Source: Ulvibacterium marinum (GTDB lineage: Bacteria > Bacteroidota > Bacteroidia > Flavobacteriales > Flavobacteriaceae). From it: 64,000 nt of DNA. The notes under the pieces were generated by a model, which worked only from the letters and a program-made list of their open reading frames with translations, had not been told where the DNA came from and did no database searches. Numbering within the stretch: the first letter of the stretch is position 1; every line of letters starts with the position of its first letter. A program made the translations under genes and the position numbers. Location: the NCBI RefSeq assembly GCF_003626755.1, contig NZ_RBCJ01000002.1, forward strand, positions 992,001-1,056,000, written 5' to 3'. Positions 3,974-5,536 of this stretch are shown here, in pieces.

Positions 3974-3986
3974 AATAGCATCGATT

Positions 3987-4014
3987 AAAAAACGCCCTTT
4001 AAAGGGCGTTTTTT
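3987..4014 (+). terminator. Intrinsic terminator after htrA-type gene
   Basis: A perfect 28-nt palindrome has arms ACGCCCTTT and AAAGGGCGT and is flanked by six A and six T residues. It starts 14 nt after the protease stop codon. The symmetrical A and T tracts would allow function on both strands. Confidence 0.88.
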
Positions 4015-4051
4015 AATTGCATTTTCTACGCATTACAACCTTGAAAATCAG

Positions 4052-4059
4052 TATTTTTG
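4052..4059 (+). promoter_or_regulatory. Candidate -7 box upstream of the GAPDH-like gene
   Basis: TATTTTTG matches the TAnnTTTG consensus 19 nt before the ATG at 4079. No TTG lies at the usual -33 spacing. The box shows that the cysteine-less GAPDH copy still has a plausible promoter of its own behind the preceding terminator. Confidence 0.5.
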
Positions 4060-4078: not shown

Positions 4079-5536
4079 ATGTTCAAAACTCCCCCAATGG
4101 AACATACGAAATCTTACGAAAAAGAATTGGCATTTCAAGCTGATAGAAGAAAGGCCACCACCGAGTTCATTAAGATAATAAGTGATTTGTGGTATGATAA
4201 GGCCATTGAGGTGGTTTTGTTCCAAAATCAAACTATCGATAAAAAAGTAAGTGACATCATTCACTTGCACGAGTATGCCGGTGAATTTGTACAAAAACCA
4301 ATTTCGATTTTTGATTCTTTAGAGATCCTAAGGGCCATAAATGATTTAAAATTACCCCCGTCCAAGTTGGATATAGGGAAACTTACTTATGAGTACCATT
4401 CGGACGAAAATAACTTCCAGGACGTAAAGTCTTTCGTTATAGACAAATTGAAGGGAGCAGGGAAAGGTAAGCGCCAGCAGCCTAAAAATGTTGTTCTCTA
4501 TGGTTTTGGAAGAATCGGAAGGCTACTGGTACGAGAGCTTATGGCAAAGACCGGAAAAGGTGACCAGTTGCAATTGAAAGCCATTGTTATAGGCGAAGAG
4601 CTAAATGCCGGGACATTGATGAAAAATGCCGATCTGCTATGTATGGATTCCGTATATGGAAGGTTTATGGGTACGGTGGACATTGATCCGGAAAATAATC
4701 TGCTGATAATAAATGGAACGCCGGTATATTTTATCCAAGCAGAAAAACCGGAAGATGTAGACTATACAAAATATGGGATCTCCAATGCTTTGCTCATAGA
4801 CAATACGGCTTCGTTCCGCTGCCAACGTGAACTCAGCAGACACTTGAAATCCAAAGGAGTGAATAGAGTTTTGCTCGCTGCCCCGGGTAAGGAAGTACCA
4901 AACATAGTATACGGGGTCAATCACCATGATTACGACCCGAATAATACCAACATGTATTCTGCAACTTCCAGCACCACAAACGCCATTACACCTATTCTTA
5001 AGGTTTTGGAGGACTCGTTAGGTATTAAAAAAGGGCATTTGGAATTCATCCATACCTGTACCGATGACAGCGATAATACACCAGAAAAGTATAATCGCAG
5101 AGGAATCGGGGCACGGCATATGGTCATTGCAGAAACGAGTGCAGAGTTAGCTGCGGCAAAGGTTCTACCCTCTTTAAAAGGTAAACTTACCTCTAATGCC
5201 ATACAGGTGCCGGCCCCAAATGGTTCCTTGGCCATTTTAAATCTAGAGGTAAAAAACAGGACTTCCTTGGACGGTATAAATACCATAGTAAAGAAATATG
5301 CACTCGAAGGCGATTTGGTAGAACAAATTAAATATTCCCTCAATAAACAAATGGTGTGCTCGGATATCGCAGAAACTTCAGCCCCTGCTGTTTACGACAG
5401 TAGTGCGACCATAGTTTCGGGAAATGGGAAGAACATCGTGTTGTATATCTGGTATGACAATGCGTATGGTTATACACACCAGATTATACGACTGGCCAAG
5501 TACATTGCCAAGGTAAAAAGGTATACCTATTACTAA
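4079..5536 (+). CDS. Long-form GAPDH family protein lacking the catalytic cysteine
   Basis: The 485-residue protein is of the long Bacteroidota glyceraldehyde-3-phosphate dehydrogenase type, with an extra N-terminal region of about 130 residues before the Rossmann motif GFGRIGRLL. The NAD fold and the C-terminal WYDNAYGYTHQ block are kept. The active-site block reads SATSSTTN where the family has SCTTN. Codon 4970-4972 is AGC, so the nucleophilic cysteine is Ser298. The partner histidine remains (His325 in FIHTCTDD). The phosphate-binding arginine before the VPxPN motif is Gln376, and the segment after His325 departs from the usual ETG-containing sequence. The reading frame is intact, so this is not simple decay. 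I infer a paralogue with altered or no dehydrogenase activity, possibly regulatory. An ATG at 4097 is an alternative start. The sequence shows the substitutions; their effect is inference. Confidence 0.85.
   Translation: MFKTPPMEHTKSYEKELAFQADRRKATTEFIKIISDLWYDKAIEVVLFQNQTIDKKVSDIIHLHEYAGEFVQKPISIFDSLEILRAINDLKLPPSKLDIGKLTYEYHSDENNFQDVKSFVIDKLKGAGKGKRQQPKNVVLYGFGRIGRLLVRELMAKTGKGDQLQLKAIVIGEELNAGTLMKNADLLCMDSVYGRFMGTVDIDPENNLLIINGTPVYFIQAEKPEDVDYTKYGISNALLIDNTASFRCQRELSRHLKSKGVNRVLLAAPGKEVPNIVYGVNHHDYDPNNTNMYSATSSTTNAITPILKVLEDSLGIKKGHLEFIHTCTDDSDNTPEKYNRRGIGARHMVIAETSAELAAAKVLPSLKGKLTSNAIQVPAPNGSLAILNLEVKNRTSLDGINTIVKKYALEGDLVEQIKYSLNKQMVCSDIAETSAPAVYDSSATIVSGNGKNIVLYIWYDNAYGYTHQIIRLAKYIAKVKRYTYY

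Follow-up and report, generated by a model that had tools for sequence, protein, structure and literature searches.

Overall organization of the locus

The window, a stretch of 64,000 nucleotides of the Ulvibacterium marinum genome, was found to contain an open reading frame on the forward strand, located between htrA and cc, that ran for 485 codons without a stop (Table 1). The profile search revealed that the encoded protein matched the NF006139/PRK08289 long-form GAPDH model with a score of 547.4 bits (cut-off 431), and the match covered residues 10-484, corresponding to model positions 3-477 of 480. The protein also matched the Pfam families Gp_dh_N and Gp_dh_C, and an extension of about 130 residues at the N-terminus preceded the Rossmann half, as in long-form GAPDHs; a Pfam search of this extension (residues 1-133) returned no family. 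The first-pass annotation had described the frame as intact over 485 residues, which held for the absence of stop codons. However, the nearest relatives begin at a methionine that corresponds to residue 7 (base 4097). Translation therefore probably begins at 4097 rather than at 4079, and residues 1-6 may be untranslated.

Table 1. Features of the long-form gap locus in the window
Feature	Position	Strand	Basis or remark
Terminator-like stem, htrA-gap interval	3982..4019	+	1 found against a shuffle mean of 1.5, no excess
TATTTTTG box, candidate promoter element	4052..4059	+	sequence; upstream alignment
Long-form GAPDH-family gene, 485 aa (479 aa from probable start 4097)	4079..5536	+	ORF, profile match, start of relatives
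N-terminal extension, residues 1-133	4079..4477	+	0/35 near-invariant columns changed
NAD-binding half, residues 134-297	4478..4969	+	GFGRIG kept; R165Q, R172G, R188C, H193Y, G244A
Codon AGC, Ser298 replacing the catalytic Cys	4970..4972	+	sequence and alignment
Active-site loop, residues 323-362	5045..5164	+	20/35 near-invariant columns changed, two by deletion
His325, general base, kept	5051..5053	+	alignment
Junction of in-frame 9-nt (3-residue) deletion relative to aligned relatives	5068..5069	+	alignment
Asn339 replacing phosphate-site Arg (Gly in the sister species)	5093..5095	+	alignment
Gln376 replacing phosphate-site Arg, before VPAPN	5204..5206	+	alignment

A search of the same genome for a second GAPDH with cysteine, which the first-pass annotation had suggested, revealed two further GAPDHs, both with SCTTN, the histidine and the arginine before VP. 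One Cys-bearing GAPDH lies directly 3' of an open reading frame that, by eye, we take to be phosphofructokinase. Because two other Cys-bearing GAPDHs are present, the GAPDH reaction is probably covered. Among the 60 genomes searched, the four outside the genus with the long gap nearest to that of the window (G003, G020, G028 and G034) each gave four GAPDH matches, the long form and three short ones, and the genome of the window gave three.

Upstream region

The TATTTTTG box resembles the Bacteroidota -7 element, and TAnTTTTG was present in 8 of 10 aligned upstream regions, in an alignment without L047, L080, L098 and L105. A sigma-70 scan gave 6 sites compared with 5.0 in shuffled sequences, and none of them was located just upstream of gap on the forward strand. 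On these results, the promoter that the first-pass annotation had stated to be present is a candidate one. We also observed the block AACGTTTGAAAT just 5' of a TAnTTTTG-like box upstream of the long gap in L008, L041, L042, L044, L048, L059, L069 and L076; altered versions of this block were present at positions 4036-4059 of the window and in the sister species. Outside the genus, 7 of the 11 relatives viewed contained the block, which may be an operator. The idea of a general block that was eroded in this genus was dropped, as the other four outside relatives (L047, L080, L098 and L105) lacked it.

Active site of the window protein

At the position of the nucleophile, the motif reads SATSSTTN and SCTTN is absent; the replacement of the catalytic cysteine by Ser298 and its AGC codon were as the first-pass annotation had reported. 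Upon alignment with the short GAPDH of the same genome (contig C11), Ser298, Asn339 and Gln376 corresponded to Cys151, Arg196 and Arg233, which are presumably Cys149, Arg195 and Arg231 in the usual (plant/Bacillus) GAPDH numbering. The retained residues included the general base His325, as previously noted, together with Thr328, Asp330 and Asn461. In a published study, Cys149 and His176 are described as the catalytic dyad of GAPDH, and Arg195 and Arg231 as the salt-bridging residues of the Ps site (PMC9287727). Since Asn339 and Gln376 occupy the positions of Arg195 and Arg231, both phosphate-site arginines have been replaced and not only the one before VPxPN, where the glutamine had already been recognized.

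The segment past the histidine, which had been called divergent, was altered over most of the loop; in the alignment with relatives, three residues were gone just past the catalytic histidine, and 20 of the 35 near-invariant columns of residues 323-362 were changed. The damage to the active site was therefore wider than the several changes first listed, as it also includes R339N and the three-residue deletion; the replacement E462A had likewise gone unmentioned. A local frameshift was ruled out as the source of the loop changes, which consisted of in-frame point changes and one 9-nt deletion. In the NAD-binding half, the cofactor motif GxGxxG was kept, and all five replaced positions (Table 1) were also altered in the sister species; the changes at R165, R172, R188 and G244 would touch the cofactor role. 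An AlphaFold model built from 8 sequences had a pLDDT of 48 and was too poor to use.

Given the replaced nucleophile and phosphate-site arginines, normal dehydrogenase chemistry is expected to be lost, in agreement with the first-pass annotation. By descent, the protein belongs to the PRK08289 GAPDHs, although its sequence lacks features by which a working GAPDH is defined.

Comparison with other long-form GAPDHs

We read 125 long-form loci, comprising that of the window, 44 others from the 60 genomes searched (its own included) and the best 80 of 395 relatives, the latter from named genomes; these loci corresponded to 123 distinct sequences, or 122 without the window. Comparing this position across long forms, as had been proposed, showed cysteine in all 124 other loci, the best 80 of 395 relatives included, and serine in the window. 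The same was true of the 121 distinct long forms outside the genus (again with the best 80 of 395), all of which had cysteine. At the level of the motif, an AGY serine was found in 1 of 397 family genomes, namely that of the window, in a search that covered AGY as the serine codons. When any codon was allowed, 115 of 149 family genomes matched, 111 of them with TGY, counted at the motif level as putative long forms; the window alone had AGC, and G004, G013 and G171 had one non-GAPDH match each, their identity as GAPDH being ruled out by tblastn (best E 0.09). Additional non-TGY matches were found beside the TGY match in G003, G026 and G079. At columns conserved in at least 95% of sequences, the window departed at 37, the most of all 123 sequences (including the best 80 of 395); the next value was 30, and the median was 1.

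Such rarity is all that speaks for an error in sequencing or assembly, or for a contig that came from a contaminant. We consider this explanation exceedingly improbable, as the gene contained many coherent in-frame replacements, some of the changes were common to the window and the sister species, the gene order of the neighbourhood was the same as in five relatives (one gene not being found in two of them), and the genome was 99.98% complete with 1.02% contamination.

Two observations on individual loci were made. On a contig labelled Bifidobacterium breve (a MAG; L099), the long gap was 66% identical to that of the window and was like that of Flavobacterium, and this bin is probably mislabelled or contaminated. 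The apparent stop in L066 fell on residue 11 of a translated match of 494 residues and was rejected as probably upstream of the start.

Comparison with the sister and third species

The comparison within the genus was based on three genomes, namely that of the window, the sister species (G002, locus L043, uncultured Flavobacteriaceae isolate 2-963) and a third species (G001). The sister gene was 85% identical to that of the window and likewise lay between htrA and cc. The two genes had nine replacements in common at columns with at least 90% conservation among relatives, and at seven more such columns both were changed, to different residues. Unlike the window gene, the sister gene retained Cys298 and R376; it carried G144E, R339G, R340H and G244V, so that its cofactor motif reads GFERIG, with a glutamate within GxGxxG, compared with GFGRIG in the window. 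The dS between the two genes was uneven, with values of 0.48 (residues 1-133), 0.44 (134-297) and 0.90 (298-485), which may reflect recombination or codon constraint.

In the third species, a search of the genome did not find the long gap as a full gene. The 412 bases between htrA and cc (L143 8862-9273) contained a decayed 3' piece of gap, in which residues 427, 469 and 480 were C, I and K, like those of the window and sister genes (S427C, V469I and R480K). Among the 121 relatives outside the genus, including the best 80 of 395, S427 and V469 were each found in 121 and R480 in 117. Because replacements are common to the window and sister genes, and some of them to all three, the constraint was probably lifted in part before the species split.

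The fragment at the same htrA-cc place would also fit a redundant third GAPDH in slow decay across the genus, seen at three stages (impaired, nucleophile lost and fragment). The absence of the long form from 15 of the 60 genomes searched, and from 7 of 37 within the family, is in keeping with such decay, as are the changes found in only one of the two species at columns conserved in at least 95% of relatives, which numbered 24 in the window and 4 in the sister.

Selective constraint on the whole gene

Overall dN/dS, the measurement of which the first-pass annotation had proposed, was far from 1. The pairwise value between the window and sister genes was 0.135, compared with 0.027-0.111 for nine neighbouring genes. 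Free-branch codon models were dropped; they gave 0.12 for the window tip and 0.87 for the sister tip, with several values at bounds, and saturation of the stem left tip omega confounded with tip length. When tip lengths were free, neutrality of the window tip was rejected weakly (2dlnL 6.1) and was not rejected at all for the NAD half. The branch omegas were obtained with the relative lengths of the two tips fixed from the nine neighbouring genes, the third species serving there as a nearer outgroup, and with ten taxa minus two (L057 and L068). With lengths tied in this way, omega was 0.0225 for the background, 0.20 for the window tip and 0.09 for the sister tip; for the window tip, both omega = 1 (2dlnL 95.7) and equality with the background (104.6) were rejected, and varying the tip-length ratio twofold both ways gave 0.16-0.29. 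In the same fit, htrA, cc and trmD showed tip values of 0.02-0.06 compared with 0.02-0.05 for the background. Since the nine concatenated neighbours also had raised tip omegas (0.066 and 0.070 compared with a background of 0.037), a minor share of the increase may not be specific to gap.

Selective constraint on the active-site loop and the remaining regions

The changes were concentrated in the loop. In a set of 106 family sequences, from which the 15 most distant (L125-L139) were left out, 208 columns were conserved at 98% or more, and the window departed at 39 of them. The proportion in the loop was 20/35, compared with 19/173 elsewhere, while the N-terminal extension had 0/35 compared with 39/173 elsewhere. 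When window-only changes were considered, the difference between the N-terminal extension (0/35) and the rest without the loop (11/129) was not significant (p 0.12). Among the amino-acid differences between the window and sister proteins, 17 of 72 were inside the loop, whereas among 1337 control pairs at comparable distances the loop accounted for a mean of 3.1% and at most 8.8% of the differences. Similarly, 31 of the 70 differences on columns of the conserved set hit near-invariant ones, compared with a mean of 1.1% and a highest value of 9.6% in 1349 control pairs. The boundaries of the loop (40 codons) were chosen after the data had been seen; a scan over all 40-codon windows gave p = 0.001 for the clustering of non-synonymous differences there, and the density of synonymous differences in the loop did not exceed that in the remainder of the catalytic domain.

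On the window tip, loop omega was 0.72-1.54 over four fixed tip-length settings and was never distinguishable from 1. The sister loop was relaxed yet not neutral (0.18-0.27). The rest of the catalytic domain had an omega of 0.077 on the window tip (2dlnL 166 against 1), and all non-loop codons had 0.146 (2dlnL 279), about six times the background; for the N-terminal extension, the values were 0.13-0.17 compared with 0.024. The non-loop and N-terminal values above background indicate that constraint was weakened everywhere. As neutrality could account for the loop along the entire branch, catalysis was probably unselected during that time.

The density of changes in the loop past the catalytic histidine could also be expected of a new enzyme with altered chemistry, in which the cofactor or substrate had changed, or serine or another residue served as the nucleophile, or the protein had become a hydrolase, with the sister gene as an intermediate. 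The kept His325, Thr328, Asp330 and Asn461 would suit such an enzyme, as would a sister gene that keeps its cysteine, has a tip omega of 0.09 and shows a relaxed but not neutral loop. Nevertheless, we regard this explanation as unlikely; neither phosphate-site arginine is left, the GxGxxG motif of the sister contains Glu, and directed change in the loop is not needed because its omega on the window tip is compatible with 1, even though one setting gave 1.54.

In neutral simulations since the split, about 17 stops were expected in the window frame and about 12 in the sister frame, and 0 of 500 runs were stop-free in either; no stop codon was seen in either frame. This result suggests that the protein was probably kept after catalysis had been given up, as would be expected for a pseudoenzyme. 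The slow decay of a redundant copy must be weighed here as well. Omega was elevated throughout the gene, and in simulated decay with 40-50 neutral missense changes, the frame was stop-free in 5-13% of runs; the simulations with 10-50 such changes may leave room for recent decay of part of the branch. Under decay, the leftover signal of purifying selection would be old, or would merely reflect avoidance of a harmful misfolded protein. Against decay, the gene has an open frame, a single indel that leaves the frame intact, and constraint outside the loop, although the loop looked neutral along the entire branch. Decay is the main alternative, which we hold to be somewhat doubtful.

The first-pass annotation had referred to a maintained protein. 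The open frame and the non-loop omega agree with this description, but constraint was weakened everywhere, and, in light of the raised omega, the third-species fragment and the 7 of 37 family genomes without the long form, it should be read as maintained so far.

Proposed history of the protein

With moderate confidence, we favour the interpretation that this is a pseudo-GAPDH, in which catalysis was abandoned in the long-form GAPDH of one flavobacterial genus and the protein has been kept under selection so far. The catalytic constraint would have been lifted in part before the window and sister lineages split. In the window gene, the nucleophile and both phosphate-site arginines are replaced and the loop evolves at a rate that cannot be told from neutral, and the core and the N-terminal extension are under purifying selection. 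The protein would be made and folded and would serve a non-catalytic purpose; this role, whether partner binding, structural or regulatory, may already have been present in the ancestral enzyme, and would probably be carried by the N-terminal extension together with the surface of the oligomer. The regulatory or binding role suggested in the first-pass annotation is likewise putative. We put forward more tentatively the fuller proposal that a natural GAPDH pseudoenzyme without the nucleophile and the phosphate sites has been kept by selection for a role of these two parts. The sister species, with its cysteine and its damaged cofactor motif, and the third species, with the gene deleted, would then be living intermediates that record the order of the dismantling.

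The three species could form a short series of steps in the loss of a redundant enzyme of glycolysis, and the window copy would raise the question of what the PRK08289 N-terminal extension does. If decay alone were at work, the case would be one of ordinary gene loss.

Comparison with known GAPDHs

A search of the open-access literature by title and by the start of the abstract returned neither a natural GAPDH without the cysteine nor the long form in Bacteroidota. Pseudoenzymes as such are already known. We compared the window protein with a solved long-form relative, PDB 8jb1, which also matched its N-terminal extension (E 2.8e-08). The alignment revealed SCTTN in 8jb1, whereas the window protein has Ser298, with further replacements at R339 and R376 and over a large part of the loop.

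GAPDH moonlights widely, and known moonlighting GAPDHs generally keep catalysis; because the enzyme keeps both, its catalysis and its other roles are hard to separate. In the moonlighting GAPDHs, an example of which, according to a published report, is Bacillus subtilis GapA (PMC8152036), and in the putative role of the window protein, the GAPDH fold is used beyond glycolysis. Unlike the moonlighting GAPDHs, the window protein has apparently lost catalysis, and its second role is putative. If catalysis was dropped and the frame kept, this natural copy would isolate the second role of GAPDH.
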